A stretch of 14,419 nucleotides of DNA. It comes from Chitinophagaceae bacterium (lineage in GTDB: Bacteria; Bacteroidota; Bacteroidia; Chitinophagales; Chitinophagaceae). Numbering within the stretch: the stretch's first letter is position 1; every line of letters starts with the position of its first letter. The stretch covers positions 1-14,419 of the forward strand of contig JAJAZO010000110.1 in the NCBI GenBank assembly GCA_026785745.1. Direction: 5' to 3'. Below are positions 1-14,419 of this stretch, one piece after another. Both the position numbers and the translations under genes were made by a program. The notes beneath the pieces are model-generated. The model ran no database searches and was not told the DNA's origin. It saw only the letters and a program-made list of their open reading frames with translations.

Positions 1-185
1 AAGGTGGCAGTATCGGCAAGGTCAATAATTTTATAATTAGTATCCAGCGATGCTGCAAGAGGTGCTAATACTGATTCTCTTCTTCCACCAAGTATAGGTT
101 TCAAGCCATAGTCAGCAGCCATTTTTGCAATCAGCGTACCGGTATAACCATTGGCACCGTATAAAAGAAACGAAGAATGAGCCAT
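1..185 (-). CDS. Saccharopine dehydrogenase-like NADP-binding protein (partial, N-terminus only)
   Basis: Only the first 61 codons are inside the window; the gene runs off the left edge. The ATG is at 185-183. The N-terminus reads MAHSSFLLYGANGYTGTLIA, so residues 10-16 form a GxxGxxG dinucleotide-binding loop (Gly10, Gly13, Gly16) in the GANGYTG form typical of the saccharopine dehydrogenase / trans-acting enoyl reductase family. A GGRR segment near residue 35 follows the second strand, where such proteins contact the NADP phosphate. The family assignment rests on this Rossmann start alone. The substrate cannot be told, because the C-terminal domain is missing. The gene is divergent from the sigma-factor operon, with 135 bp between them. 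Confidence 0.75.
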   Translation of the reverse strand, partial: MAHSSFLLYGANGYTGTLIAKMAADYGLKPILGGRRESVLAPLAASLDTNYKIIDLADTAT

Positions 186-320
186 AATTTTTTTTAAGTA
201 GTGTGTAAAGTAAAGTTATGTTTTTGGTTAATATTGATGACTTCATGAAAAGAGTCTTTTAGCATTTAGACACAACATGTTTTCGTAAGTTACAGCGTCA
301 AAACCCAAACCTTCCGACTG
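186..320. other. Divergent intergenic region
   Basis: This AT-rich gap lies between two divergent genes and must hold promoters for both. I looked for the Bacteroidota TTTG-N19-TAnnTTTG pattern on both strands and found only imperfect matches (for example TATGTTTT at 217-224 on the plus strand). I therefore do not call a promoter. No ORF or strong hairpin is visible. Confidence 0.5.
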
Positions 321-884
321 TTGAACGAACTTGAACTGATACAGGGACTTAAAAGCGGAGATGAAGCCTCATTTAAATATTTGGTGGATACCTACCAGGA
401 CAGAATTTTCAATACTGCCATCGGTATAGTGCAAAATGCCGAAGATGCTGAGGATGTAGCGCAGGAGGTTTTTATACAAGTATACCGGTCTATTCATAGT
501 TTTAAAGGGGAGTCAAAATTATCAACCTGGATGTACCGGATTGCAACAACCCGTGCCCTAGACTTGCTCAGAAGCCGGAAAAGCAAAAAAAGATTTGGCT
601 TTATGCAACGCCTTTTTGGAGATGATAATGAACCTATGCATGAATTGCCTGATTTTAATCACGCGGGAGTGGCTTTGGATAGAAAGGAATATGCAGCGAA
701 ACTCTTTAAAGCGATTACCCAACTGCCTGAAAACCAGAAGACAGCCTTTACCCTGCACAAGCTGGAAGAACTTAGTTACCAGGAGATAAGTGAGGTAATG
801 GAGACAACTGTGCCGGCTGTAGAGTCGCTGATGCACCGGGCCAAGCAAAATTTGAGGAAAATATTGGCAAATGAAACAGACTAA
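321..884 (+). CDS. ECF-type RNA polymerase sigma-70 factor
   Basis: The 187-residue protein has the size and two-domain layout of an extracytoplasmic-function sigma factor. Region 2 spans about residues 20-88, with the DAEDVAQEVF core-binding segment at 42-51 and the -10-recognition helix ending in LSTWMYRIATTRALDLLRSR. Region 4 spans about 130-180, with LPENQKTAFTLHKLEELSYQ followed by the helix-turn-helix EISEVMETTVPAVESLMHRA. The start is a TTG at 321: it places the conserved ELIQGLKSGDEASF motif at the expected distance from the N-terminus. No in-frame ATG lies upstream before the stop at 267-269, and no ATG lies in the first 60 codons. It is the first gene of a three-gene operon with a membrane protein and a CpxP-like protein, so it probably directs an envelope-stress or metal response. 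Confidence 0.93.
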   Translation: MNELELIQGLKSGDEASFKYLVDTYQDRIFNTAIGIVQNAEDAEDVAQEVFIQVYRSIHSFKGESKLSTWMYRIATTRALDLLRSRKSKKRFGFMQRLFGDDNEPMHELPDFNHAGVALDRKEYAAKLFKAITQLPENQKTAFTLHKLEELSYQEISEVMETTVPAVESLMHRAKQNLRKILANETD

Positions 885-938
885 GTAATTTACCGTGACG
901 AAGGTTTTGGGCCGACTTCCCGTCAAAAATGGTGTATT

Positions 939-1268
939 ATGAATAACAACAGAAATAATAAGATTGAGGAAATCCTTGGCAGCCTTGACGGAACTCAAAA
1001 GGCGGCTCTGCCTGATTTCTTTTATACCCGCCTAAAGGCAAGGATGGAGAAAGGGTTAGAACCAACTATTAAAAAATCATGGGTTCTTCGCCCGGCTTTT
1101 GCTTTTGCTGCCCTGGGTATTATTTTGCTTATAAATGCAGTTGTTATTTTAAAAGGTGATGCAAATAAGAATACAGCGTCTAATGATTCTGAAACAATTC
1201 AATCCATTGCAGCTGAGTATAGCCTGAATGATAACAGCTTGGTGTACGACTTAAATCAGGATAAATAA
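939..1268 (+). CDS. Small single-pass membrane protein, probable anti-sigma factor
   Basis: This 109-residue protein begins 54 bp after the sigma-factor stop codon. A soluble, charged N-terminal part (about 1-48, with a KIEEILGSLDG helix and a FYTRLKARME helix) would face the cytoplasm. A single hydrophobic segment (about 51-71, PAFAFAALGIILLINAVVIL) follows, then a short acidic, polar tail of about 38 residues. That topology, the size and the position directly after an ECF sigma gene are what is expected of a minimal anti-sigma factor. No zinc-finger (ZAS) His/Cys motif is visible, so it would be of the non-ZAS type. The function is inferred from context and topology, not from a recognised domain. 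Confidence 0.7.
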   Translation: MNNNRNNKIEEILGSLDGTQKAALPDFFYTRLKARMEKGLEPTIKKSWVLRPAFAFAALGIILLINAVVILKGDANKNTASNDSETIQSIAAEYSLNDNSLVYDLNQDK

Positions 1269-1269
1269 G

Positions 1270-1746
1270 ATGAAGAATCCCACTAATAAAATTTTGGCAA
1301 TTGCTGTAGTGTTTCTATTACTTACAAACATTGCGCTGGTTATTTTTATGTTGAATAAAAAGCCGCAAGCCGATAAACGACGTGGCCGGGTTGACCCATT
1401 TGAGATGATGGTGAAAGAGCTTAACATGACAGAACAGCAACAAAAAGATTACAAATTGCAAAAGGATGAGCACTTTAAAAATATTAAACCTTTATTTGAC
1501 TCCGTTCGTGCCGCCAAGACAGCCTTCTTTGCTTTAACAAAAGAGCAGAACGTAAATGACAGCCTGGTGAATCAATATAGCCAGCGGATAAGCGAAAAAC
1601 AATCAGCAATAGACAAACTCACTTTTGCCCACTTTAAAAGGGTACGGGGTTTATTTACTGCCGGGCAGCAACCGAAGTTTGACGAGTTTGTACAAAAGAT
1701 GATGCAGCGGTGGAGAAAAGACTCAGCAGATAAGAAAGACAAATAA
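1270..1746 (+). CDS. Membrane-anchored Spy/CpxP-like periplasmic sensor (heavy-metal resistance family)
   Basis: The ATG follows the upstream stop codon after a single base, so the two are almost certainly co-translated. The 158-residue protein has one uncleaved N-terminal membrane segment (about 8-28), a basic linker (KKPQADKRRGR) and a helical, charged periplasmic domain. The domain carries two copies of the LTxxQ-like signature of the Spy/CpxP/CnrX superfamily: LNMTEQQQKDY at 51-61 and FTAGQQPKFDEF at 129-140. Family members sense misfolded proteins or metals and hold an anti-sigma factor or sensor kinase inactive. His68 and His121 are the only periplasmic histidines, so a His-rich metal site like that of CnrX is not obvious. 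Misfolding or general envelope stress is as likely a signal as metal. Confidence 0.8.
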   Translation: MKNPTNKILAIAVVFLLLTNIALVIFMLNKKPQADKRRGRVDPFEMMVKELNMTEQQQKDYKLQKDEHFKNIKPLFDSVRAAKTAFFALTKEQNVNDSLVNQYSQRISEKQSAIDKLTFAHFKRVRGLFTAGQQPKFDEFVQKMMQRWRKDSADKKDK

Positions 1747-1748
1747 TA

Positions 1749-3530
1749 TCAGGCATAAATTCTTTCAATAGCATCCCTGAATTTTTCTATCACTACTTTT
1801 CGTTTCAACGACATCTTAGGAGTTAATTCCCCTGTATCTACACTCCATTCATGAATTAATAATTCAAACTTCTTTACCTGCTCCACATGGTTAAAGAATT
1901 TATTAAAGCTTTCTACTAATTCTTTGAAAAGCTCGATGACTTTCGGATTGCGGATAAGTTCTTCGCTGCTGCTGTCAGCTACTCCATTTTTTCTTGCCCA
2001 ATCCCGCAGGTTAGGAAAAGAAGGAACTATCAAAGCACTGACAAATTTTCTTTCAGCACCTACCAGCATTACTTGTTCAACAAAAGGAGACTCCTTCAGT
2101 TTATTTTCAATGGGTAGCGGAGCCACATACTTTCCACCACTGGTTTTGAAAAGTTCTTTTTTACGGTCTGTTATTTTTAAGAAATTATCTGCTGTCAAAT
2201 CTCCAATATCACCTGTATGAAACCAGCCATCTATAATATCCAACGCTGTCAGGTCGGGACGTTTATAATAGCCCATCATCACATTAGGGCCTTTGCAAAG
2301 AATTTCGCCGTCCTCAGCTATTTTTACCTGCACCCCATCAATCAGAGGTCCCGACGTGCCAAATTTCCGGCCGCTTTCCTGGTATCTGTTTACTGAAATT
2401 ACGGGGGATGTTTCTGTTAATCCATAACCCTCCATAATTGGAATTCTGGCTGCAGTGAAAATGCGGATAAGCCTGACCTGGCAAGCCGCCCCACCAGTAA
2501 CGATACATTTCAAATTACCTCCCAGACCTTCTCTCCATTTGCTGAAAATTAATTTGTTGGCTATGTTAAGTTGCAGATTATACCAGAATCCCTGATTTTT
2601 ATTGATTTCAAATTTTTCAGCCAAACTATGGGCCCAAAAAAATAATTTTTTCTTGGTACCGGTCAGCTCATTTCCTTTTTGCATTATGCGGTCATACACT
2701 TTCTCCAGCAGGCGGGGTACTGTTGTAAAAATATTTGGGTTTACTTCCTTTAAGTTATCCGCAATAGTGTCTAAACTTTCGGCATAATAAATAGAAGTGC
2801 CTTTGAAAAGATATTGGTAAGTAACCATCCTTTCAAAAATATGGTTTAGTGGCAGAAAGCTGAGGGCCCGCAAATCATCCACCGGAGGAAAACAGGGGAT
2901 GCATGACAGTACGTTTGAAAGAATGTTCCGGTGAGATAGCATTACTCCTTTCGGCGTTCCTGTAGTCCCTGAGGTATAAATGATGGTGGCCAGGTCTTCG
3001 TAATCAATTTTATCACTGATGGGTTTTACCTGCTCTATCAATTGCGGAGTGCTTAATGCAGTAACTTCTTTCCAGTGTTTTGCATTGGCTACATGCTCAA
3101 AGGCGAAAATATTTTTAAGGCTGGGCACTTTTTCTTTAAGGCTCAGCACTTTTAGAAATAAATCTTCATCATTTACAAATGCAAATTTTACCTGTGCATC
3201 TTTTAAAACAAACTCAAGTTCGTTAACATTAATGGTGGGATACACAGGTACCAGCATAGCTCCAATCTGCTGTACAGCCATATCGACCATTATCCATTCA
3301 GGACGGTTTTTACAAAGAATAGCTACTTTGTCTCTTCCTTCGGGGGTCATGTCGCCGCAACTGATGCCGAGGCTTAATAAGCCGGCACTGAGATTGTCCA
3401 CTATAGTTTTTACTTCAGCTGTGCTGTATTTTCTCCACTGCCCTGATTCCTTTCCTACCAGCATATCTTCCAGCGGCTTGCGTTCCAGATGGTATTGGAT
3501 GCAGTCAAATAATCTTTTTGGCTCTTTCAT
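1749..3530 (-). CDS. Long-chain fatty-acid--CoA ligase (AMP-dependent synthetase)
   Basis: The 593-residue enzyme activates fatty acids to acyl-CoA through an acyl-adenylate, feeding lipid synthesis or beta-oxidation. All adenylate-forming motifs are present, numbered from the ATG: the phosphate-binding loop YTSGTTGTPKG (185-195), the A5 motif EGYGLTETSP (367-376), GWFHTGDIG with the ribose-binding Asp (435-443), the hinge KITDRKKELFKTSGGKYVAP (452-471), and the C-terminal TPKMSLKRK (570-578) with Lys572 as the expected catalytic lysine. The length and the LFKTSGGKYVAP form fit bacterial long-chain ligases of the FAA1/FadD15 group rather than acetyl-CoA synthetase. I chose the ATG at 3530; the frame also allows a TTG two codons upstream. 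It is a single gene that converges on the CpxP-like gene. Confidence 0.93.
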   Translation of the reverse strand: MKEPKRLFDCIQYHLERKPLEDMLVGKESGQWRKYSTAEVKTIVDNLSAGLLSLGISCGDMTPEGRDKVAILCKNRPEWIMVDMAVQQIGAMLVPVYPTINVNELEFVLKDAQVKFAFVNDEDLFLKVLSLKEKVPSLKNIFAFEHVANAKHWKEVTALSTPQLIEQVKPISDKIDYEDLATIIYTSGTTGTPKGVMLSHRNILSNVLSCIPCFPPVDDLRALSFLPLNHIFERMVTYQYLFKGTSIYYAESLDTIADNLKEVNPNIFTTVPRLLEKVYDRIMQKGNELTGTKKKLFFWAHSLAEKFEINKNQGFWYNLQLNIANKLIFSKWREGLGGNLKCIVTGGAACQVRLIRIFTAARIPIMEGYGLTETSPVISVNRYQESGRKFGTSGPLIDGVQVKIAEDGEILCKGPNVMMGYYKRPDLTALDIIDGWFHTGDIGDLTADNFLKITDRKKELFKTSGGKYVAPLPIENKLKESPFVEQVMLVGAERKFVSALIVPSFPNLRDWARKNGVADSSSEELIRNPKVIELFKELVESFNKFFNHVEQVKKFELLIHEWSVDTGELTPKMSLKRKVVIEKFRDAIERIYA

Positions 3531-3630
3531 TTGCAATCGTAGTTATGTTAAGTAATCAAAACTTTTACTGTACTCCGTAGAGATAATAAATAAGTATATG
3601 GACAGACAATTTAGTTAAAAAACAATATAT
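3531..3630. other. Upstream region of the acyl-CoA ligase gene
   Basis: This AT-rich stretch separates the ligase start from the terminator of the next gene. It should hold the ligase promoter, read on the minus strand. A TAnnATTG sequence lies just before the ATG (one mismatch to the Bacteroidota -7 box), but no TTTG lies at the right distance. I do not assign a promoter. Confidence 0.4.
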
Positions 3631-3664
3631 AAAAAAAATAGCCCCACCTTTTTAAGGCAGGGCT
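3631..3664 (-). terminator. Rho-independent terminator of the TPR gene
   Basis: On the minus strand, 20 bases after the TPR-gene stop, AGCCCTGCC (3664-3656) pairs with GGTGGGGCT (3648-3640). This gives a 9-bp stem with two G-U pairs and a 7-nt loop (TTAAAAA). An A and eight T residues (3639-3631) follow. This is a textbook intrinsic terminator and marks the end of the transcript before the acyl-CoA ligase gene. Confidence 0.9.
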
Positions 3665-3683
3665 TAATAAAATTATTCAATGA

Positions 3684-4700
3684 CTATAAGGACTGGTAAT
3701 ATTGGCCGGGGGACATTCTAAAAACCCTTGTTTTTTGAAAAGCACTAAAACCGTTATATTCTTCCTGGTGCGTTTTGGCCCAATTCTCATACGCTGCCAG
3801 ATTTTCTATAGGCCCAAACAGCCATTGGTTATATGCATTGAACATCCCCTCAGTTAACAGCTGCCGTTGATAATCAAACAAACGGAAGGGAAATTTATCA
3901 GCATTGTTGGCATACCAGTCAAGAATAAACCTTGCCCGTATCATTGTCAGTGTTTCCGTAGTAATGCCCTTATTGGCCAGCGAAGATTGTTTGGACATAC
4001 CCTGCAAAAAGGTTTTCGCAAATTCACTCTTATTTCCTTCGCCACCTTTCATAAGATCTGCATCAACAAATAATTTTTCTTTATAGCCCTGGAGTAAAAG
4101 TTCTTTCATGGCAGCACCTCTTTCCCCGAGGCTTTCCATATTGATGAATATTTCACCATAGATAAGGCTCCATACTTTGTCTTTTGTATAGTAGTAAAAC
4201 ATTGCAGCATTATAATAATTGCCGCTGAATGCCGGGTCAACTTTAATGCCCTCTTCCCATAGCTTAATAGCAGAGAAATCTTTTGTAGCCCACAACAGCT
4301 CACCATACTCGCTTAGCAGGGAACCACTTTTAGGAAATTTTTTTAATGCTTTTTTATAGAGTTTATCGCAGTCTTTTACTTCTTCCAATGCTTTATATAC
4401 ATTACCGGCTATCTGAAAGCAAACTACATCGGCATCATTTCTTTCAACCAATAATTTTGCTCCTTCCAGTGCTTTTGCATAATCCCTTTTCAGGTAGTGA
4501 CTCATTACCAGATCTTTTTGCATCTCCAGGTTATTGTTATCCTGTTGTATAGCCCTGTTTAAGATTATTATGGCATTATTAAAGTCGCCAGACCGCATAA
4601 AAGTCTTTGCTGTTTCATGCAGTGCCTTAGGGTCTTCAGGTTGGGCAAAGGCTGTAAAAAAGAGAGAGAAAGCAATAAAAAGAGAGCATATTTTTTTCAT
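3684..4700 (-). CDS. Secreted tetratricopeptide-repeat protein
   Basis: The 338-residue protein starts with a clear signal peptide (MKKICSLFIAFSLFFTAFAQ, probable cleavage after Ala19). I chose the ATG at 4700 because the frame's further 19 upstream codons would spoil the signal and run through the promoter. Residues about 25-190 are five tandem 33-34-residue helical repeats with TPR spacing and small/aromatic positions (for example SGDFNNAIIILNRAI at 37-51, KDFSAIKLWEEGIKVDP at 140-156). The C-terminal part (about 195-338) has no motif I recognise. TPR units mediate protein-protein contacts, so this may be an envelope scaffold, but no partner can be named. The gene has its own promoter and terminator, so it is probably monocistronic. 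Confidence 0.8.
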   Translation of the reverse strand: MKKICSLFIAFSLFFTAFAQPEDPKALHETAKTFMRSGDFNNAIIILNRAIQQDNNNLEMQKDLVMSHYLKRDYAKALEGAKLLVERNDADVVCFQIAGNVYKALEEVKDCDKLYKKALKKFPKSGSLLSEYGELLWATKDFSAIKLWEEGIKVDPAFSGNYYNAAMFYYYTKDKVWSLIYGEIFINMESLGERGAAMKELLLQGYKEKLFVDADLMKGGEGNKSEFAKTFLQGMSKQSSLANKGITTETLTMIRARFILDWYANNADKFPFRLFDYQRQLLTEGMFNAYNQWLFGPIENLAAYENWAKTHQEEYNGFSAFQKTRVFRMSPGQYYQSL

Positions 4701-4745
4701 ACCGCAATTTAAAAGGAAGAGACATAACAGGGAACGTATCCGTTG

Positions 4746-4774
4746 CAAAAATAACAAATATTTGAGGAGAGAAA
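4746..4774 (-). promoter_or_regulatory. Probable promoter of the TPR gene
   Basis: On the minus strand, TATTTTTG (4753-4746) matches the Bacteroidota -7 box TAnnTTTG exactly. A TTTC (4774-4771) stands 17 bp upstream in place of the TTTG -33 box. The predicted start would give a leader of about 40 nt. The -7 box is strong; the -33 box and spacer are suboptimal. Confidence 0.55.
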
Positions 4775-4777
4775 CGG

Positions 4778-6031
4778 CTAAATAAGGTGTGTAAGCAGCC
4801 CATCCCTAAGTTTGGGTTCAAACCAGGTACTTTTTGGAGGCATTACATTACCACTGTCAGCAATATCAAACAATTGCCCGATGGTAACCGGATATAAGCT
4901 GAACGCCACTTTCATTTCACCGCTGTTCACCCTTTTTTCCAGTTCTTTTAACCCCCGGATGCCGCCGACAAAATCAATCCTTTTATCTGTCCGTTGATCT
5001 TTGATGCCCAATAGCTTGCTGAGGATATTATTGGAAAGAATAGTTACATCCAGCACACCAATCGGGTCTTCGGTATATGTTCCTTTGCGGGAAGTGAGAA
5101 TATACCACTGACCATCCAGGTACATCCCAAATTCATGCAGTTCTGATGGCTTTACCGGTTCGGGGCTATGGGTGATAAAAAAATCGTCCTGTAACCGGCT
5201 GATAAGTTTTGCGCCAGTTAATCCATGAAAATCTTTTACCAGCCTGTTGTAATCTAAAATAGCCAACTGACTGGCCGGAAAAATAGTAGTGAGAAAATAT
5301 TTTGCATCAGCACTGTCAGGTAATTGTTTACTCACTTTGGCGGCAGATGCGGCCCGGTGATGGCCATCGGCTATATAAGTGGCAGGAACATCTGTATTAA
5401 ATAATTCGGTGATGGAGTTTATTTCAGTATCCCGGTCCACTACCCAAATACTGTGTTGAATGCCATCACTGGCTGTAAAATCATATACAGGTTTATGGGC
5501 AGCTTTCCAGCCGTCAATCAAGTCGTTTATTTTTATCACATCACGGTAGGCCATAAACACATTACCCGTTTGTGCCTGAATTGCCATCATGTGGTCAATA
5601 CGGTCTTTTTCTTTTTCCGGCCGGGTAAACTCATGTTTTTTTATAACATCATTAAAATAATCCTCAACAGAAGAAACACAAACGAGGCCGGTCTGGCTTC
5701 TTCCATTCCCACCTCCGCTAAGGCTATGATGGGCAGGCATCACCAACTGGTAAATATAGTAGCAGGGTTTTTCTTCCCTGAAGAGTATATTTTCTTTATT
5801 AATGAATTGCAGCAAATTTTCTTTGGCTTTTTCATACACTACTTTGCTATGTGTATCTATGTCATCCGGCAAATCAATTTCAGATTTCGTTATCCGGAGA
5901 AATGAAAAAGGATTATTTGCAGCTTCTTTTTTCGCTTCTTCACTATTAAGTACATCATAAGGTCTTGATGCCACCTGTTCGGCTAATGCTGGTTGAGGGC
6001 GGAGAGCATTGAATGGTTTAATAAGGGCCAT
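4778..6031 (-). CDS. DUF1015 family protein
   Basis: The 417-residue cytoplasmic protein matches the DUF1015 family along its length. It has an N-terminal IKPFNALRPQP and ASRPYDVLNSEE (21-32), the central KKHEFTRPEKEKDRIDHM (131-148), and the strictly conserved IADGHHRAASA (220-230). No signal peptide or membrane segment is present. It starts 29 bp after the serC stop codon, so the two are probably one transcript. DUF1015 genes commonly sit with serC and serA in Bacteroidota and other phyla, which links the family to serine metabolism, although no reaction is established that I know of. The Asp-Gly-His-His-Arg loop recalls the GxHR/GCHR loop of ParB/sulfiredoxin-fold enzymes, some of which are serine kinases; that link is my inference. 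Confidence 0.88.
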   Translation of the reverse strand: MALIKPFNALRPQPALAEQVASRPYDVLNSEEAKKEAANNPFSFLRITKSEIDLPDDIDTHSKVVYEKAKENLLQFINKENILFREEKPCYYIYQLVMPAHHSLSGGGNGRSQTGLVCVSSVEDYFNDVIKKHEFTRPEKEKDRIDHMMAIQAQTGNVFMAYRDVIKINDLIDGWKAAHKPVYDFTASDGIQHSIWVVDRDTEINSITELFNTDVPATYIADGHHRAASAAKVSKQLPDSADAKYFLTTIFPASQLAILDYNRLVKDFHGLTGAKLISRLQDDFFITHSPEPVKPSELHEFGMYLDGQWYILTSRKGTYTEDPIGVLDVTILSNNILSKLLGIKDQRTDKRIDFVGGIRGLKELEKRVNSGEMKVAFSLYPVTIGQLFDIADSGNVMPPKSTWFEPKLRDGLLTHLI

Positions 6032-6060
6032 AATATATTGAAAATTGATTATTGAATATT

Positions 6061-7131
6061 TTATCCGTGAAGTTTTGCAAAATCTTTCATCAGGTCAGTT
6101 AATGCCTTTACACTTTCGATAGTTAGAGCATTATACATAGACACCCGGAAACCACTTACACTGCGGTGGCCTTTTACACCCACCATACCATTTGCTTTGC
6201 AGAGGTCAACAAATTCTTTTTCTAATGCAGCATCTTCCATAATAAATACAGCGTTCATTTTACTCCGGTCTTCTTTGGCCACCGGGCCTTTAAAAACAGG
6301 CAACGTATCCAGGGTGTCATAAAACAATTTTGCTTTTGCATCATTTTCTTTTTCTATAGCTGCTACGCCGCCTTTGTTTTTCAACCAACGCAACGTAAGC
6401 ATCGCCACATAAATGGCAAAAACAGGTGGTGTATTCAGCATGCTGCCTTCTTTAATATGATTGCGGTAATCAAGAATAGCAGGAAGAGCCCTGTTTACTT
6501 TTCCTAAAATATTTTTATTGACTACCACAAGATTTACTCCCGCAGCACCCATATTTTTCTGAGCACTGGCATAAATCAGATCAAACTTATTAAAATCAAG
6601 TTGACGGCTCAATATATCACTACTCATATCTGCCACCAGCGGTACTCCACAATCATAAGGCATGGTATGCCATTGGGTGCCTGCAATAGTTTCATTGGTG
6701 GTAATGTGGAAGTAGGCGGCAGTAGGAGTAACGGATATGTTTTTTGGGATACTTGTATAATTATCCTCTTTGGAAGAACCAACAATTTCTATATGGCCAA
6801 ACAGTTTTGCTTCTTTAATAGCTTTATTGGCCCAAACACCTGTTTCCATATATGCTGCCGCCTCATTTTCATTCAGCAAATTCATCGGCACCTGCATAAA
6901 CTGCGTAGTAGCACCGCCATGCAGGAACAATACTTCATGATCATCATCTAAGCTCATCAGTTCTTTTACCAAAGCTCTTGCCTCATCCATCACTGGCTGG
7001 AATAAAGGAGTACGATGGCCAATTTCTAAAATGGATAAACCGGTGTAGTTGAAATCAAGAACCGACCGGCTGGCTTCTTCAAAAACTTCTTTGGGTAAGA
7101 TAGAAGGGCCGGCATTGAAATTATGAATCAT
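6061..7131 (-). CDS. serC: Phosphoserine aminotransferase
   Basis: The 356-residue PLP enzyme converts 3-phosphohydroxypyruvate and glutamate to phosphoserine and 2-oxoglutarate, the second step of serine biosynthesis (and a step of pyridoxine synthesis in some bacteria). It begins MIHNFNAGPSILPKEV, the usual SerC N-terminus, and shows GHRTPLF (38-44), the cofactor-phosphate loop GGATTQF (72-78), HITTNETI (142-149), ADMSSDI with the PLP-stacking/pyridine-nitrogen Asp (167-173) and ASAQKNMG with the Schiff-base Lys192. Length and motifs are complete. The ATG at 7131 is preferred over an in-frame upstream ATG at 7179 because the extension would read through the previous gene's terminator hairpin. 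It is followed by DUF1015; serA is not next to it here. Confidence 0.96.
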   Translation of the reverse strand: MIHNFNAGPSILPKEVFEEASRSVLDFNYTGLSILEIGHRTPLFQPVMDEARALVKELMSLDDDHEVLFLHGGATTQFMQVPMNLLNENEAAAYMETGVWANKAIKEAKLFGHIEIVGSSKEDNYTSIPKNISVTPTAAYFHITTNETIAGTQWHTMPYDCGVPLVADMSSDILSRQLDFNKFDLIYASAQKNMGAAGVNLVVVNKNILGKVNRALPAILDYRNHIKEGSMLNTPPVFAIYVAMLTLRWLKNKGGVAAIEKENDAKAKLFYDTLDTLPVFKGPVAKEDRSKMNAVFIMEDAALEKEFVDLCKANGMVGVKGHRSVSGFRVSMYNALTIESVKALTDLMKDFAKLHG

Positions 7132-7135
7132 GGCG

Positions 7136-7143
7136 CAAAGGTA
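7136..7143 (-). promoter_or_regulatory. Promoter -7 box of serC
   Basis: On the minus strand TACCTTTG (7143-7136) matches the Bacteroidota TAnnTTTG box exactly and lies only 4 bases before the serC ATG. The predicted transcription start would fall at or next to the start codon, so the mRNA would be leaderless or nearly so. No TTTG lies 19-21 bp upstream; that position is occupied by the T-run of the preceding terminator (about 7170-7165). Confidence 0.55.
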
Positions 7144-7163
7144 TTGATTGGATTTTTTTTTAT

Positions 7164-7200
7164 TAAAAAATCCTGTCACGCCTAAAACGGGACAGGATTT
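7164..7200 (-). terminator. Rho-independent terminator of the T9SS propeller gene
   Basis: Downstream of the stop codon at 7222, AAATCCTGTC (7200-7191 on the minus strand) pairs perfectly with GACAGGATTT (7177-7168). The stem extends by three pairs (CCCG/CACG with one mismatch) around a 7-nt loop, and a run of six T (7170-7165) overlaps and follows the hairpin. It ends the 3.9-kb transcript just before the serC promoter. Confidence 0.88.
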
Positions 7201-7221
7201 ATTTTTATTTTGTCTAAATCA

Positions 7222-10200
7222 TTAATGAACAAGCACTCTACCCTCCGCCAGTTTTTTACCGGCAGCATCGCCAACTACTACATAATAGATACCTGTTTGA
7301 ACTGGTTTTATATTTACACTAAGTAAAGTATAAGGTCCGTTAATAGTGAATTTAGCATTATATACTTTAGATCCCTTCGAGTCAAATACTGTTACAGTTC
7401 TTAATGTACTACTGCCATCACTATTATAGTATGATACTGTAAACAGCCCGTCATTAGGACTTGGGAAAATAAACAGGTTACTGCTTACGGCGGCATCTAA
7501 TGCCACCACCGCAGACTGGTTAGAGCATACAAGTCCGCTGCTAAAGGCTTCCTGTATCCTTACTTGGTAGCTGCCAGTAGTTTCAATATTTACCACATAA
7601 GTATTTCCGGTATTGGAAAATGCAGTACCGTTTTTAAACCAACTGGTAGTTAACACACCTCCTGTTGATGCACTTGGTGTGGCAGTAAGTATAGTTTTTT
7701 GCCCGGGAAATAAACTGGTAAGTGGCGAAGCTGATAACCCAACTGTTGGTAATTGCCTTACGGTAAGTATTGCTGCTACAGAATTAGCAGGAGTAGTACA
7801 AGTTGTATTCCATACCTGGCAACGATAACGATTTGCGTTGGCAGCAGTTGTTACACCCGTTAACGATAAAGTAGCGGAAGTGCCACCTGCAACATTGCTC
7901 CATGCAGTGCCTCCATCGGTACTTACCTGCCATTGATAAACGAGACCTGTACCGCTGCCAGCTACAGTAAATGTAACATTGCCGCCCGAACATACTTCTG
8001 TGTTTGCAGGTTGGTTTGTTACTGTGGCAGGGCTGATTACGGTTAATACTGCAGCAGACGAGTTGGCCGCCGGTGTACAAGCACCACTGACAACGCAACG
8101 ATAGCGGTTTCCATTCATCGCTGTAGTAATTCCTGTTACAGTATAAGTTAAGTTGGTAGCACCGCCGATATTATTATATGTTGCTCCATTATCAGTACTT
8201 ACCTGCCATTGGTAACCAATTGCTGTACCAGTTGATGCGAGAGTAAATGTATTGTTGCTGCCTGCACATAGTGTTGCATCTTGTGGGGCTGTGGTAATTG
8301 CAGGGGCAGAGTTTATTGTCAGTATCCCGGCATTGGAATTTGTACTTCCGCATTGGGTTTGAGCAATACAACGGTAGCGGTTACCATTAAATGAAGCAGC
8401 GGCTCCTGTTATTGTAAGGGTACCCGTTGTGGTTCCGCTATACACTGTAGAATTTGACAGGAAAGTGTATGTACTACCTCCATCTGTACTTAACTGCCAT
8501 TGTAAGGTAGAAGCACCAGCAGCAGTTATGTTAAAAGATGTATTTGCTCCTGCACATATTGCCTGGTTTGCCGGCTGTGCAGAAATAGCAGGGCCGGTTC
8601 CGGGGTTAATAGTAAAAGTTATATTTCTTGTTTGTGTTGTGGCACCGGTTGAATTTCCTGTAATGGTTATTGTATAAGAACCTGCAAGTAAAGTATTCGC
8701 ACTATTTAAGGTTACAACACTGTTATTTCCGGGTGTTACCGGATTTGTTCCAAAACTAATAGTAGTACCAACCGGCACACCGGCTGTTGCAGAAAGTGTA
8801 ATAGGATTGGTAAACCCACCACTTGGAATGGTGCTTAATGTAACAGCCATTGTTGTTGGTGCAGGGCAGGTGGCAATGGTAGCAGCAGGACTATTAAATG
8901 TAAAACTTCCCGGAGGTGCTGCATTTGCAACAGGACTTTCCCAAATACCCCGGCCATAGGTAGCCACTCTTATTTTTCCTGAATTTTTTTGAATTTCCAG
9001 TTCATTAATAGCTACAAGGGGAAGGTTATCAGAATAATTTGTCCAGTTAACATCGGATTCAGTTTTATAATACACACCAATGTTCATACCTACATATATG
9101 CCACTTGGTGTTTTATCATCTACTACGATTGTTCTGGCAACAATATTCGGAAGGTTTGATGAAACGTTGGTAAACGTTGCACCTGCATCGGTAGAAACTA
9201 ATATTCTGTTTGTAGCACTATTACAAGCAATCCATATTTTGGAAGGATTAGTTGGATCAACAGCAATATCGTTAATGGTTGATGGAGCTGATCTGATTGC
9301 CCAGGTAGCGCCGTCATCTGTTGTTACATACAATGTTGCTCCGTTTGAAGCATAAATATAATTGGGGTTGGAAGGGGCAACTGCAAGGTCGGCCAATGTG
9401 GTAGTGATTGTGCTGCCCGAAATATTTATCCAGGCTGTTCCGCTGGTTGTTGATTTATATACACCGGTCCAGCCGCCAAATACAATTGTTTCATTAGTTG
9501 GATGAATGGCTAATGGTGTTACCCATTGTCCGTTGGATGGTTTTGGCAGACCGGAATAAGAATTACCACCATTGGTAGACCTGTAAATGCTACCATTTTG
9601 ACTGGTACCCCAGAGGTTTAAATGATTAGTAGGACTAACTAATCCTTCCATTCCGTCTGCACCAAGCCAATCGGCCCAGTTACCTGTAGTAGCTTGTCTT
9701 GTTACACTTCCATTATCCTGTGCACCACCGGTAATTACCGTAGCATTAGTTGGTGAATTGGCCATCCGGTAAAACTGGCGGATACCCAAGCCTGTTGAAA
9801 GATCAATCCAGTCATCACCATTATTTATGCTTTTATAAATACCGCCGTCTGAAATGGAATAAATAGTTGCATTGACCCAAAACAAACCATGTACATCGGC
9901 ATGATTATATCCAACGCTGTTTGGCAATGACCATGCTGTAATGGGGCTGAAAGAACTGCCTTCGTTTACCGACTTCCAGCAAATGATACCGGCAATATAT
10001 ACTTCTGCGGGATTAGTAGGCGAAACATCCATAGCCATGTCATATGTTGCCTGACCACCGGTACCGGCACCGCTTGTCTCATAACCAAAATAGTTGGTAT
10101 TAGTTGTTGGGCTACCAACTACTGTTGTAGTAAATGTTAATCCGGCATCAGTTGATTTATACATTCTTCCAAATTCACTTCCATTAGCCTGCGCTGCATA

Positions 10201-11127
10201 AACATAATTAGGATTTGATGCAGATACAGAAACTAATGTGCGGCCTGTATTAGTAATACCATCAGCTGCGGTTACGGGTGCCCAGTTAACACCGTTATTG
10301 GTAGAACGATATACATCACTACCAGTAGCGTACATAATGTTTATATCATCAGGTTTAAACTCAATATCTTCTTTGCTTCCGGAATGAACTTGTGTCCACG
10401 ATGTACCGGCATTGGTTGACCTCCATATTCCATTGGTACAAGCAGCAAATACAATATTGGCATTGGAAGGGTGTATCAGAATTTTTCTAACATTGCCACC
10501 AGGGCCACCGCCAGCAGGAGCCAATGTAGCGCCGGCATTAGTAGATTTTAATATGCCCGAGCCATTTGTTCCAACATAAATAGTATTTGGATTAGTGGGA
10601 TCAATTGTGATGGCAAAAATTTGCATCCAGGTTGAATTGTTATCAGTAAGTGGTTGCCAGTTCATACCGCCATTTGTTGTTTTCCATAATCCACCACCCG
10701 GCGAGCCGACATATATTACCTGTTCATTAGAAGGAAGTATGGCAACTGCTGATATTCTTCCGGTACCTGGGTTCCAGCCACTGGTACGATTCCAACCCCA
10801 TGGGCCAAGTTCTGTCCAGTTACCGGCAGCTACAATATTGTTGCTGTTTAAAGAAGGAAGGCTAGCCTGGTAATTCGCCCAGTCTGTTTGTGGTGAAATG
10901 TAATTGCCATTTTCATCTGTATGAAACTTACGTTCATATAACCAGCGTTGAAATTGTTTGTAGCCAGTGCCACGGCCGGTACCGGCACTATCAAAGTACC
11001 TGTCAGCACTTCTCACAACTTCCTGAAGGGTAAGGTCAGTTCTTTCCATCAATTCAAAAATCTTTTGCTGGGCTGTGGCGTTAATAGAAAAAGAAAATAG
11101 TAGTAATAAGGGGAGAAGTTTTTTCAT
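7222..11127 (-). CDS. Large T9SS-secreted protein: BNR/VPS10-like propeller, Ig-like repeats, C-terminal sorting domain
   Basis: The 1301-residue protein starts with a signal peptide (MKKLLPLLLLFSFSINATAQ). Residues 21-100 are a charged linker. Residues about 103-732 form a beta-propeller region with about eleven Asp-box-like motifs of the S-T-x-x-G-x-x-W/F type (150-157, 195-202, 237-244, 275-282, 325-332, 386-393, 433-440, 517-524, 559-566, 602-609, 645-652), most preceded by a strand ending in IYVG/IYA. This is the sortilin/VPS10-like, glycosidase-BNR pattern, but no sialidase catalytic set is evident. A beta-sandwich (about 738-842), three homologous Ig-like repeats (847-1123), a fourth Ig/PKD-like domain (1127-1210) and a type A T9SS sorting domain (1216-1301, with FIFPSPNDGLFTV and GIYYVVV) follow. 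It is probably cell-surface or secreted; a role in adhesion or polymer binding is inferred from the domains. Confidence 0.92.
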   Translation of the reverse strand: MKKLLPLLLLFSFSINATAQQKIFELMERTDLTLQEVVRSADRYFDSAGTGRGTGYKQFQRWLYERKFHTDENGNYISPQTDWANYQASLPSLNSNNIVAAGNWTELGPWGWNRTSGWNPGTGRISAVAILPSNEQVIYVGSPGGGLWKTTNGGMNWQPLTDNNSTWMQIFAITIDPTNPNTIYVGTNGSGILKSTNAGATLAPAGGGPGGNVRKILIHPSNANIVFAACTNGIWRSTNAGTSWTQVHSGSKEDIEFKPDDINIMYATGSDVYRSTNNGVNWAPVTAADGITNTGRTLVSVSASNPNYVYAAQANGSEFGRMYKSTDAGLTFTTTVVGSPTTNTNYFGYETSGAGTGGQATYDMAMDVSPTNPAEVYIAGIICWKSVNEGSSFSPITAWSLPNSVGYNHADVHGLFWVNATIYSISDGGIYKSINNGDDWIDLSTGLGIRQFYRMANSPTNATVITGGAQDNGSVTRQATTGNWADWLGADGMEGLVSPTNHLNLWGTSQNGSIYRSTNGGNSYSGLPKPSNGQWVTPLAIHPTNETIVFGGWTGVYKSTTSGTAWINISGSTITTTLADLAVAPSNPNYIYASNGATLYVTTDDGATWAIRSAPSTINDIAVDPTNPSKIWIACNSATNRILVSTDAGATFTNVSSNLPNIVARTIVVDDKTPSGIYVGMNIGVYYKTESDVNWTNYSDNLPLVAINELEIQKNSGKIRVATYGRGIWESPVANAAPPGSFTFNSPAATIATCPAPTTMAVTLSTIPSGGFTNPITLSATAGVPVGTTISFGTNPVTPGNNSVVTLNSANTLLAGSYTITITGNSTGATTQTRNITFTINPGTGPAISAQPANQAICAGANTSFNITAAGASTLQWQLSTDGGSTYTFLSNSTVYSGTTTGTLTITGAAASFNGNRYRCIAQTQCGSTNSNAGILTINSAPAITTAPQDATLCAGSNNTFTLASTGTAIGYQWQVSTDNGATYNNIGGATNLTYTVTGITTAMNGNRYRCVVSGACTPAANSSAAVLTVISPATVTNQPANTEVCSGGNVTFTVAGSGTGLVYQWQVSTDGGTAWSNVAGGTSATLSLTGVTTAANANRYRCQVWNTTCTTPANSVAAILTVRQLPTVGLSASPLTSLFPGQKTILTATPSASTGGVLTTSWFKNGTAFSNTGNTYVVNIETTGSYQVRIQEAFSSGLVCSNQSAVVALDAAVSSNLFIFPSPNDGLFTVSYYNSDGSSTLRTVTVFDSKGSKVYNAKFTINGPYTLLSVNIKPVQTGIYYVVVGDAAGKKLAEGRVLVH
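7224..7482 (-). other. T9SS type A C-terminal sorting domain (within the 1301-residue protein)
   Basis: Codons 1216-1301 encode NLFIFPSPNDGLFTVSYYN at the start, a VTVFDSKGSKVYN strand pair, and PVQTGIYYVVV near the end, finishing with GRVLVH. This is the usual order of the type IX secretion C-terminal signal: Asn/Pro-rich first strand, VxDxxGkxV, then GxYxVxv. It directs export across the outer membrane, where it is normally removed. Confidence 0.85.
7759..8589 (-). repeat. Three tandem Ig-like repeats with conserved cysteine triads
   Basis: Codons 847-1123 encode three homologous repeats of about 90 residues. Each has an opening (Q)PxxxxxCxGxNxxF, then YQWQVSTDGG or a variant, then NGNRYRC or NANRYRC near the end. 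The cysteines recur in register: C858/C920/C926, C954/C1011/C1017 and C1046/C1103/C1110. The first two in each set would form the Ig-type disulfide across the sandwich. Protein-level similarity is clear, while the DNA has diverged, so the duplication is not recent. Confidence 0.8.
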
Positions 11128-11233
11128 AAATATTGATTAACAGGATTGGTGGTTTAGACTTGTAAAGCTAAAAAAATCTAATTGTAAATCATAGCCCTGA
11201 AAAAATCAGGTCAACCGGTTGATATGACGAATA
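11128..11233. other. Intergenic region between the phospholipase-like and T9SS genes
   Basis: These 106 bp hold a small hairpin (CCTGA-AAAAA-TCAGG, 11196-11210) directly next to a perfect 12-bp palindrome (TCAACCGGTTGA, 11211-11222), and AT-rich sequence before the T9SS gene start. On the minus strand a near-match to a -7 box, TAGCTTTA (11169-11162), is the best promoter candidate for the T9SS gene, without a good -33 box. The hairpin lacks an adjoining T-run, so I do not call it a terminator. Confidence 0.45.
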
Positions 11234-12199
11234 TTATTCATGTTCCCGGCCTTTAATGCCGGCATTTTTCCAGGAATTGTTCAGGCCTTCAAATTCTTTC
11301 AGGTCATCGGCAGAAAAAACTTTGTTGGATAGATTTTTTAAATCAGGCTGACCGGCATTTACCCAAGCGGTGTACCAAAAAGAAGCCACCGCAAAAATTG
11401 ATTGTCGCATTCTTCTCTCAATCATGCCTTTCAGTTTCGCATCATATGCTTTTGAAAAAGCAGACGAATATTGCCGGATGGTAATACCATTGCGGTCTTC
11501 AAACGAAAATTTTTGGTCGCCGGGAAATTGATTGGTTAACTCTTTTTCATATTTCAATACGGTGTCTGCTGCTGCGGCACTTTCCAGCACTCTTTTCCAG
11601 ATAAAGTCGGAAGGATTTTTTAAGAATTCAGCTTTCCCAATAAAAAAATCCCATTCTTTATCAGCAAGCAATTCTGGAATCCGGCTTTCCCAAAAACCAT
11701 GAATACCTTTTTGATCAGTATATTGCCCATTATGATTTTTGGTGGCATGAAGCGGCACATGAGAGTCGGCAATATAATGACCAATTTCTGCGGATAGTTT
11801 TAAAATCTTTGCCTGGTTCTTTTCTTTAAAAGCATCAGTAAGGCGGTAAAGCATTGTTTGTAACCACCAGGGTACAATACCATAAGTGTTCAGTGTATCT
11901 TCTGAGTATTTTCTAACGGCATCATTCCATTTACGGGGCAACGAATCGTAGGGATATTTTCCATAATGGTCAATGTCTATATAATGCCGGGGGCCTTCTT
12001 CGGGTATGGCATATCTTCTTTTATCCGGATCTACAGCATGTTCATAAAGAAAATCAATCTGCGGTTTATACAATACCATCATCTCTGGCGGCAGCAGAAA
12101 AACGGCATAATAGTTTATTTTTTTATGCGCATAAAATCCCCAGCAAAAACAATCTTTTGCCAATAAGGAATACAAAAGGATAAGAAACAGTTTTCGCAT
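11234..12199 (-). CDS. Secreted zinc-dependent phospholipase C / S1-P1 nuclease-fold enzyme
   Basis: The 321-residue protein has a signal peptide (MRKLFLILLYSLLAKDCFC) and a predicted mature N-terminus Trp20-Gly-Phe-Tyr-Ala-His25. In the phospholipase C/P1 nuclease fold the N-terminal Trp and eight other side chains hold three zinc ions. All have counterparts: Trp20, His25, Asp57, His72 (RHYIDIDHY), His141 and Asp145 (AEIGHYIADSHVPLHATK), His151, His167 and Glu171 (HGFWESRIPE). The spacings W-5-H, D-15-H, H-4-D-6-H and H-4-E fit known members. Glu171 follows phospholipase C rather than P1 nuclease, which has Asp there. I chose the ATG at 12199 over a GTG one codon upstream. It begins 14 bp after the DUF502 stop, so the two are probably co-transcribed. 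The substrate (phospholipid or nucleic acid) is undetermined. Confidence 0.85.
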   Translation of the reverse strand: MRKLFLILLYSLLAKDCFCWGFYAHKKINYYAVFLLPPEMMVLYKPQIDFLYEHAVDPDKRRYAIPEEGPRHYIDIDHYGKYPYDSLPRKWNDAVRKYSEDTLNTYGIVPWWLQTMLYRLTDAFKEKNQAKILKLSAEIGHYIADSHVPLHATKNHNGQYTDQKGIHGFWESRIPELLADKEWDFFIGKAEFLKNPSDFIWKRVLESAAAADTVLKYEKELTNQFPGDQKFSFEDRNGITIRQYSSAFSKAYDAKLKGMIERRMRQSIFAVASFWYTAWVNAGQPDLKNLSNKVFSADDLKEFEGLNNSWKNAGIKGREHE

Positions 12200-12213
12200 C
12201 ACTGGTTGTTTAT

Positions 12214-12897
12214 TTAACTGGGCTGCACTTCTGTTCCGGCGACAGCATCTTTTCTTTCAGCATCCAGGTCCACCACACCACCGGTTACAGCATACTTCAT
12301 TGCTTCGCCGGAAGTTATTTTACCTATCTTTCTTACTTTCCCTTTTGGCAGCACATAGAGCTGCCCTGCAAAATTGTAAGCCTGTGGTACATACACAGCC
12401 ACATGTTCTGCACCCATTTCAAATTTACCCATTTCTTCATCCGTTAAAAAACCAATAATCCATACGTCTTCTGAAAATACATTGGCCAATACTGCTTTAT
12501 TGAATTTACGTTTATCACCGGCAAAGGCTTCAAAAAAATCTTTGGTAGAAGTGTAAAGGAATTTGATAACGGGAGTCCTCGCCATCCACTGATCGAAAAA
12601 ATTGATAAAACTGCCCATCAGGAAATAGGAGCTTATCCAACCAACAAAAATTACAAAGGCAATTATTACTACAAAACCGAGTCCAGGTATTTTTTTTACG
12701 TTCCCTTTATCATCTTCTTTAATCCAGGAAGGAAAGATATTATTGATAAGGTTGGGCAACAGATCATCTACAAAATTAAAGGCAGCCACAATAGCCCACA
12801 CCGTAATTGCTATCGGGGCGATGATAAGAAGCCCCTGCATGAAGAAACGTAATACTTTCTTAACAATACTCTTTGCCGGTGGGCTGGCTGTAGTCAT
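12214..12897 (-). CDS. DUF502 family inner-membrane protein
   Basis: This 227-residue protein has two membrane segments: about 19-42 (FMQGLLIIAPIAITVWAIVA) and about 73-96 (LGFVVIIAFVIFVGWISSYF). Between them is a short charged loop (DDKGNVKKIPG). The family signature follows: ARTPVIKFLYTSTKDFFEAF (106-125), then VWIIGFLTDEE, HVAVYVPQAYNFAGQLYVLP and the near-C-terminal EAMKYAVTGGVV. Length and motifs agree with full-length DUF502 proteins. The family has no settled biochemical role. The gene is divergent from tetR, with 153 bp between them, and is the first gene of a unit with the zinc-dependent phospholipase-like enzyme. Confidence 0.9.
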   Translation of the reverse strand: MTTASPPAKSIVKKVLRFFMQGLLIIAPIAITVWAIVAAFNFVDDLLPNLINNIFPSWIKEDDKGNVKKIPGLGFVVIIAFVIFVGWISSYFLMGSFINFFDQWMARTPVIKFLYTSTKDFFEAFAGDKRKFNKAVLANVFSEDVWIIGFLTDEEMGKFEMGAEHVAVYVPQAYNFAGQLYVLPKGKVRKIGKITSGEAMKYAVTGGVVDLDAERKDAVAGTEVQPS

Positions 12898-12978
12898 TTG
12901 TTTGATTTACAAGCTAAGGTAGCCTAAAAAATACGTCCCGCAGGGTGCAAAAAATCGGTGAACGGTCGAAAAAAAGGG

Positions 12979-13010
12979 ATGGAAACTTTGGCAACGAAAA
13001 AAGTTTCCAT
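12979..13010. promoter_or_regulatory. Perfect 11+11 bp inverted repeat, probable TetR-family operator
   Basis: ATGGAAACTTT (12979-12989) and AAAGTTTCCAT (13000-13010) are exact reverse complements separated by 10 bp, so the half-site centres lie 21 bp apart, two helical turns. The left arm contains the -33 TTTG and the right arm ends on the first base of the -7 box of the tetR promoter, so bound protein would block RNA polymerase. This arrangement strongly suggests autorepression by the downstream TetR-family protein. The repeat lies 82 bp upstream of the divergent DUF502 start and could influence that gene too. Confidence 0.8.
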
Positions 13011-13017
13011 AGTTTTG
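12987..13017 (+). promoter_or_regulatory. Promoter of the tetR-tolC unit
   Basis: TTTG (12987-12990) and TAGTTTTG (13010-13017) are separated by 19 bp. Both boxes and the spacing match the Bacteroidota primary-sigma consensus TTTG-N19-TAnnTTTG exactly. The predicted transcription start is near 13021-13024, giving a leader of about 28 nt before the ATG at 13051. Confidence 0.85.
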
Positions 13018-13025
13018 TGCCCGTT

Positions 13026-13039
13026 CCGATAAATATCGG
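13026..13039. repeat. Short palindrome in the tetR leader
   Basis: CCGATA and TATCGG flank an AA centre, giving a 14-bp inverted repeat between the predicted transcription start and the tetR start codon. It could be a second operator or a small mRNA hairpin that limits translation of tetR. The sequence is unrelated to the 32-bp repeat upstream. Confidence 0.5.
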
Positions 13040-13050
13040 GATACAAAAGA

Positions 13051-13689
13051 ATGGAACCTAAAGAACGCATATTACTAAAAGCCGAAGAGTTGTTTATGCA
13101 ATACGGGATACGGTCAGTATCCATGGATGATATTGCGAATAACCTCGGTATGAGCAAAAAGACACTATACCAGTATTTCGCCGATAAAGACGAACTGGTG
13201 GAAGCGGTGGTGGAAGGGCATATTAATGAAGTGCAGGGTGATTGCATCAATTGCCGAACCAATGCCACAGATGCAATCCATGAAATTTTCCTTACGATGG
13301 AGCATATTATGGAAGAGCTCAATAATATGAACCCCATGCTACTGTATGATTTAGAGAAATTTCACTTTAAAGCCTACCAGCGGTTCAAAAACTATAAGGA
13401 TAAATTTTTGTTACAGATTATCCGTAATAATATAGAGTGGGGCATTAAAGATGAACTGTACCGGATCGGTTTGAATATTGACATATTATCGAAATACAGG
13501 ATTGAATCAATCATGATTCCTTTCAACGTAGCTGTTTTTCCTCCCGGTAAATACAACCTGGCCAGGACATCAGAAGTTATGATTGAAAATTTCACTTACG
13601 GTCTTGCCACTATCAAAGGACATAAACTGATTCAGAAATATAATGAACAACGACAAAAAAATCTTTTGTATGAAGAGAGTAAAAAATAA
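13051..13689 (+). CDS. TetR/AcrR family transcriptional regulator
   Basis: The 212-residue protein has the TetR-type N-terminal helix-turn-helix at about 5-52 (KERILLKAEELFMQYGIRSV, then SMDDIANNLGMSKKTLYQYF and ADKDELV). The long, variable helical C-terminal part (about 55-212) would bind a ligand and dimerise. The length is typical. The ATG at 13051 lies 34 bp after a consensus promoter that is overlaid by a perfect inverted repeat. The gene overlaps the start of a TolC-like gene by 20 bp, so it probably represses itself and an efflux operon and is relieved by an exported compound. The ligand cannot be told from sequence. Confidence 0.92.
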   Translation: MEPKERILLKAEELFMQYGIRSVSMDDIANNLGMSKKTLYQYFADKDELVEAVVEGHINEVQGDCINCRTNATDAIHEIFLTMEHIMEELNNMNPMLLYDLEKFHFKAYQRFKNYKDKFLLQIIRNNIEWGIKDELYRIGLNIDILSKYRIESIMIPFNVAVFPPGKYNLARTSEVMIENFTYGLATIKGHKLIQKYNEQRQKNLLYEESKK

Positions 13690-14419
13690 AGGAAAGGTAT
13701 TAATAGCAGGATTGTTTTTTTTACCGGTGCTGGTAATGGCTCAACCTCCTGATACTGCTAATATAACCAAGTATGAATTTTCCATTCAGCAGGCAGTAGA
13801 TTTTGCCACAAAGAATAATGTGAATGTAAAGAACGCCTTAGTGGATGTGCAACTGCAGGAGCAGGTAAACCGGGAAGTAACTTCCAATGCATATCCTCAC
13901 ATTAGTGCAAATATCGGAACTATCTACAACCCGGCGGTAGCTACACAGGTGTTGCCCAATTTTATTTCACCATCCACCTACCAGGTATTGATAGACCAGG
14001 GAGTAAAGGATGGTAGCGGTAATGTTATCGTAATGCCCAACGACTTTGGATTTATAGCAGCGCAGTTTGGTACTAAGTTCAGTGCATCGGCAGGTATCAC
14101 CCTGAGTCAGTTGTTATTTGATGGCCAGGTATTCGTAGGCCTTATGGCAAGAGATGCAACGATGAGGTTCTCCAAAAAGAATGTGGAGGTGACCGAAGAA
14201 ATTATCAAAGCCAATATTCATAAAATCTATTACCAGTTAGTGGTTAGCAAAACACAGGTTGAATTATTGGATGCCAATATTGCCTTGCTGGAAAAAGAAA
14301 CTTATCCTTTTCATAAAGTCTGTGGCGAATATATAAGTATGGAAAGCTGGAATTTTTTAGAGCGTTGTGGCGTTCCTTTAAAAGATTTGGGTCTTCCTAC
14401 CATCAATCATCTCCGGCTC
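13670..14419 (+). CDS. TolC family outer-membrane efflux protein, N-terminal part, running in frame into an unrelated segment (partial)
   Basis: The frame is open from an ATG at 13670, inside the end of tetR (20-bp overlap), to the right edge of the window (250 codons). A signal peptide (VLIAGLFFLPVLVMA, cleavage after about Ala24) is followed by FSIQQAVDFATKNNVNVKNA and VQLQEQVNREVTSNAYPHIS, the usual first helix pair of TolC/OEP proteins, then the beta-strand insert and FGTKFSASAGITLSQLLFDG and EIIKANIHKIYYQLVVSKTQ. From about residue 206-211 the sequence stops looking like TolC. A true TolC would continue with about 220 more helical residues, followed by membrane-fusion and RND pump genes. 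As drawn, the product cannot be a working outer-membrane channel. See the separate entry for the tail. Confidence 0.8.
   Translation, partial: MKRVKNKGKVLIAGLFFLPVLVMAQPPDTANITKYEFSIQQAVDFATKNNVNVKNALVDVQLQEQVNREVTSNAYPHISANIGTIYNPAVATQVLPNFISPSTYQVLIDQGVKDGSGNVIVMPNDFGFIAAQFGTKFSASAGITLSQLLFDGQVFVGLMARDATMRFSKKNVEVTEEIIKANIHKIYYQLVVSKTQVELLDANIALLEKETYPFHKVCGEYISMESWNFLERCGVPLKDLGLPTINHLRL
14285..14419 (+). other. Fragment resembling an FAD-dependent oxidoreductase, fused in frame to TolC
   Basis: Codons 206-250 read LLEKETYPFHKVCGEYISME, then a SWNFLERCGVPLKDLGLP stretch. This resembles the segment just after the first beta-alpha-beta unit of flavoprotein monooxygenases and geranylgeranyl reductase-like NAD(P)/FAD-dependent oxidoreductases. 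There, a strand ending in an acidic residue (LLEKE) is followed by YPxxKxCGE and then a helix with L..LG. The GxGxxG loop that should lie about 30 residues before it is absent, because TolC sequence stands there. The point of change lies within the Leu-Leu-Glu-Lys-Glu codons (14285-14299), which both families could share. I read this as a chimeric assembly or a deletion fusion, not a natural domain architecture. The family assignment is from memory of the motif. Confidence 0.65.

Follow-up and report, generated by a model that had tools for sequence, protein, structure and literature searches.

The window analyzed here is the whole contig C110 (positions 1–14419, 14,419 nucleotides), which belongs to a bin of a Chitinophagaceae bacterium comprising 2,819,318 bases in 483 contigs with a completeness of 72.83%. 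At its right edge lies an open reading frame on the plus strand (13643–14419) of 259 codons, which is open at the contig end with no stop codon before the edge. Its entry in the protein collection, P0002, has 250 amino acids and starts at the second ATG; in a search of this collection it proved to be a singleton, with one sequence from one contig. Residues 1 to about 218 of the reading frame are TolC-like; the 41 last residues, joined to them in frame, correspond to an early section of an FAD oxidoreductase (Table 1).

Table 1. Features at the right edge of the window and the evidence on which each assignment is based
Feature	Position	Strand	Basis
TetR-family regulator gene, directly 5′ of tolC	13051–13689	+	Pfam TetR_N, 57.3 bits; equal position in four relatives (by inspection)
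Outer membrane efflux gene of the TolC family, N-terminal half only, rest missing	13643–14296	+	PF02321; same-genus matches
Switch interval	14283–14296	+	Base-by-base comparison to 24 TolC loci and 15 oxidoreductase loci; upstream exact-match counts
Probably foreign tail, oxidoreductase residues about 38–79, lacking the GxGxxG in front of them and truncated at the contig end	14297–14419	+	Protein and locus comparisons

Elsewhere in the window, the minus strand codes at 7222–11127 for a predicted exported protein of 1301 amino acids with Sortilin–Vps10-type matches and an Ig-like domain; a match to the Por secretion (type IX) tail is just under the curated cut-off. At 321–1746 on the plus strand an ECF sigma factor gene is followed by an open reading frame of 109 amino acids without a Pfam match and by a weak LTXXQ/metal-resistance-like gene, both of which are under the curated Pfam cut-offs.

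The TolC half and its neighborhood

The first part of the reading frame matches the Pfam family OEP (PF02321) over residues 49–218 with 42.9 bits, the curated cut-off being 22. This match corresponds to one partial repeat (profile positions 2–135 of 187), and the layout of a TolC protein with two repeats and about 470–490 amino acids is not found. A TolC match is present in 32 of 34 genomes of the same genus and absent in two, and the identity over the matched parts is 58–88% in 31 of them and 33% in one more (G022). The reading frame of these TolC genes has a length of 473–529 amino acids in 29 of the 34 genomes, counting G022 as well as G031, G011, and G003, although in each of the latter three one stop is recorded within the matched part, and a length of 302–379 amino acids in three.

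By inspection, four relatives (L048–L051) share the gene order phospholipase C-like, DUF502, TetR, TolC, HlyD, and AcrB, the AcrB gene of L048 being cut by a contig end. Pfam names were run on the genes of the window and on HlyD and AcrB of L050, and the remaining neighborhood calls were made by inspection. The window keeps the order of the relatives from the phospholipase C-like gene over DUF502 and TetR up to the middle of TolC. In this respect the locus resembles the tetR–tolC–hlyD–acrB operon of Chitinophagaceae-type genomes, the likeness extending to residues 1–218 (TolC family, OEP, PF02321) and to the TetR, DUF502, and phospholipase C-like neighbors; it differs in that the contig lacks the second half of TolC and the downstream pump genes. 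The zinc-dependent phospholipase C-like gene and the DUF502 gene (11234–12897, minus strand) adjoin tetR–tolC in the four relatives as well and thus form a conserved neighborhood (by inspection, with Pfam on the window genes).

The C-terminal half of TolC as well as HlyD and AcrB of this operon were searched for in the 72.8% complete bin and were not found; the searches for pump genes gave only more distant transport genes on the contigs C266, C344, C141, and C375. The preliminary description had taken the junction as a sign of a lost efflux operon. We do not follow this view, because the bin is only 72.8% complete and the contig simply ends before the point at which the genes of the membrane fusion protein and of the RND pump stand behind TolC in the four relatives. 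The absence of these genes is expected from missing sequence and is no evidence of loss.

The oxidoreductase tail and its relatives

The tail LLEKETYPFHKVCGEYISMESWNFLERCGVPLKDLGLPTINHLRL is similar to FAD-dependent oxidoreductases, with identities of up to 80%. A protein search with the tail gave 836 proteins at E ≤ 0.001, the best of which besides the window's own protein has an E value of 2.6e-17 and 80% identity. The tail aligns with the oxidoreductase residues about 38–79 and carries the signature YPFHKVCGEYIS, and the similarity covers the YPFHKVCGE region of FAD-dependent oxidoreductases of the geranylgeranyl-reductase type. The N-terminal GxGxxG is absent from the reading frame, as TolC sequence occupies its place. 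Of 84 related oxidoreductase loci 83 have this motif, and 102 of the 119 oxidoreductase proteins among those listed show a narrower GxGxxG pattern within their first 40 residues. When searched by themselves, the last 45 residues of the reading frame gave no Pfam match at E ≤ 1, and a search of solved structures with the tail gave none at E ≤ 10. The possibility that the tail is part of TolC was rejected, as the residues 219–259 alone match none of the seven TolC proteins tried at E ≤ 1.

Thus, several statements of the preliminary description hold. A TolC gene does change in frame to a flavin oxidoreductase fragment at the right edge, as is evident from PF02321 on residues 49–218, the up to 80% identity of the tail, and the sharpness of the switch at the DNA level. 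The separate matches of each half agree with the view that two unrelated families are present and that an annotation taken at face value would name a false fusion protein, and the GxGxxG that should precede the oxidoreductase signature is indeed missing. An alignment of the tail with ordinary TolC proteins, which had been named as an observation against this view, does not occur.

The bin has an oxidoreductase of its own, which lies intact on contig C217 inside a cluster of genes for UbiA, a type III PKS, a methyltransferase, and the oxidoreductase. It is of the type found in the genus, with 70–82% identity to the copies in four other genus genomes; altogether only five of the 42 genus genomes have the gene, with one copy each at E ≤ 1e-30. 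Locus L052 (2253–6044, minus strand) carries such a cluster, with genes for a UbiA prenyltransferase, a type III polyketide synthase, a methyltransferase, and an FAD oxidoreductase, and by inspection the order is equal in four loci of other genera (L053–L056). When compared with the oxidoreductase of this cluster, the tail has in common the alignment to residues about 38–79 and differs in being only a fragment with no GxGxxG and no neighbors and in its unlikeness to the genus copies.

The tail agrees with the C217 copy in 24 of 41 residues and 75 of 123 bases (76% identity over 74 bases in the DNA search) and with the other four genus copies in 23 of 41 residues, and all five genus copies share 69–75 of the 123 bases. 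With these values the tail was rejected as a copy or an overlap of the C217 gene. Among the proteins listed, P0122, P0123, and P0134 agree best (33 of 41 residues), and the best locus is L076 from a "Bacteroidetes bacterium" bin (95 of 123 bases, 77%); these four records may belong to the genus or lie outside it. Fifteen oxidoreductase loci are known to be from other genera; 14 of these share 25–29 of the 41 residues with the tail, and the remaining one, which belongs to another family, shares 19. At the DNA level 11 of the 15 surpass the 75 of 123 bases that the C217 copy has in common with the tail, two are equal, and two are below. It should be noted that the 15 loci were fetched for matching the DNA of the tail and that C217 is the only genus copy matched in that search. 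A near-identical source of the tail was not found in the collections searched, the nearest having 80% identity at the protein and 77% at the DNA level. The GC content of the tail (0.39) is hardly different from that of the contig (0.405).

Since it differs from the genus copies and resembles 14 of the 15 loci from other genera more closely, the tail is most simply explained as DNA of another species. Thus, on the basis of these comparisons we suggest that DNA of another species has probably been attached at the contig end. It is highly improbable to us that tolC and a resident oxidoreductase gene were joined by a microhomology deletion within the genome. The bin does have an oxidoreductase of the same family with the above similarity over 74 bases, but this copy is intact, lies on another contig, and is unlike the tail. 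Besides it, only a distant relative on C260 (28% identity to an outside oxidoreductase) was found in the bin, and each of the five genus genomes with the gene has a single copy at E ≤ 1e-30, though another copy may lie in the part of the genome that was not assembled. The preliminary description had offered misassembly or microhomology deletion as causes; an artefact is the likeliest cause, and the deletion is disfavored by the 23–24 of 41 residues in five of five genus copies.

Position of the switch and search for an independent instance

The change is sharp at the DNA level: of 15 oxidoreductase loci 14 have the G at 14297, and of 24 TolC loci none has it. For this per-position comparison 43 loci were given, of which 24 passed the TolC cut-off and 15 the oxidoreductase cut-off; the TolC loci L011, L019, L020, and L021 were below the cut-off and were dropped. 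The 24 TolC loci represent 18 distinct genomes, six loci being second fetches of genes already included. At the positions 14291–14295 the base of the window is present in 88–100% of the TolC loci and at 14296 in 67%; from 14297 on these loci diverge. On the other side, all 15 oxidoreductase loci agree with the window at 14291–14292. Upstream of 14297 the exact match to the window was counted in 84 oxidoreductase loci (85 were examined and one, with under 60 of 123 matching bases, was dropped) and amounts to 8 bases in 6 loci, 6 bases in 44, 3 bases in 12, 1 base in 1, and none in 21, so that it is never longer than 8 bases. The match of 6 bases found in 44 of the 84 loci is GAAAAA (14291–14296). 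The crossing can be placed only within 14283–14296, because either family can have the residues LL in front of EK; among the oxidoreductases listed, 24 of 119 have LL at this place. The preliminary description was therefore right that the change occurs inside a stretch which both genes could encode, but this stretch lies within 14283–14296 and not at 14285–14301. A repeat of 17 bases common to both genes, considered as the cause, thus narrows to at most 14283–14296, as the TolC relatives diverge from 14297 and the related oxidoreductases share at most 8 bases upstream.

The DNA of the region 14230–14419 gave 59 matches in 52 of 197 genomes, this bin included. None of the other 58 matches in the 197 genomes covers both sides of the junction, and only the contig itself does; with the contig set aside, the matches on the oxidoreductase side start at positions of at least 14275, and those on the TolC side stop at positions of at most 14304. 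At the protein level, the best 120 of 4405 matches for the whole reading frame and the best 120 of 836 matches for the tail were scored, giving 239 distinct proteins, of which 114 align with the TolC part only, 119 with the tail only, and six were flagged for both. The latter six are the window's own protein and the TolC proteins P0085, P0089, P0090, P0092, and P0109, which are aligned through gaps; the motif HKVCGE is found in none of these five. An independent protein with both halves is not present among the 238 other listed relatives. Hence the order of TolC followed by YPFHKVCGE in independent genomes, named beforehand as an argument against a false fusion, does not occur among the listed proteins or in the DNA matches of the 197 genomes.

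These searches also bear on the idea of a functional TolC–oxidoreductase fusion family, for which only the open frame speaks. The protein is a singleton, no independent homologue being present in either set of matches scored (the best 120 of 4405 for the whole frame, the best 120 of 836 for the tail), and half a TolC together with a Rossmann fold lacking GxGxxG has no expected function. We regard such a family as practically out of the question.

Origin of the junction

From these sequence comparisons we suggest that the first half of a TolC gene and 123 bases of a flavin oxidoreductase gene have been joined and that the junction is, in all probability, an artefact by which DNA of two bacteria was fused during library preparation or metagenome assembly. 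The contig, starting from the tetR–tolC–hlyD–acrB operon, would have run into an oxidoreductase gene that belongs to a second Chitinophagaceae-like species of the sample. The extension out of TolC may be due to a read or fragment that was itself chimeric, at a contig end of thin coverage, or to a false route through the assembly graph. The junction is only 123–137 bases away from the contig end and would by arithmetic fit within one read of 150 bases, the actual read length possibly being different. That the join is in frame probably follows simply from the GAAAAA (Glu–Lys) common to both genes. No selection is needed for this, because many relatives of both genes have GAA AAA in the same frame at this place. 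The common stretch as inferred from the relatives is shorter than the k-mers usually used in assembly, and a plain k-mer collapse is thus not established.

A real rearrangement in the strain appears very improbable to us. In this case a deletion or insertion via the short common stretch would have put the oxidoreductase gene of another species inside tolC, replacing the TolC C-terminus and the pump genes and ending the operon. Such an event would account for the in-frame junction without a stop and for the TolC C-terminal half, HlyD, and AcrB not being found in the bin, but in a bin of this completeness the absence says little. In addition, the junction is present in no relative examined, the change lies within a read length of the contig end, and the fragment begins past the otherwise nearly invariable GxGxxG.

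The fusion of two DNAs by artefact agrees with the features of a chimeric contig end, namely a junction near the end of the contig, no independent instance, and a tail probably of another lineage. A literature search on microhomology chimeras in MAGs gave nothing to the point. Contig-end problems and chimeric contigs of metagenome assemblies are described in parts of two reports (PMC8172020, PMC7881036). The present case resembles the contig-end errors and chimeric contigs known from short-read metagenome assemblies in that sequence of another gene, probably from another species, is joined at a contig edge of a fragmented bin; it may go back either to a chimeric read or to a path in the assembly graph. 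The junction is likely an ordinary contig-edge chimera and nothing novel. No fusion protein and no loss of a pump is to be inferred from it. This calls for caution, as the singleton P0002 with its 250 amino acids could pass for a new fusion protein and the bin for one that has lost an efflux pump, and neither conclusion is warranted.
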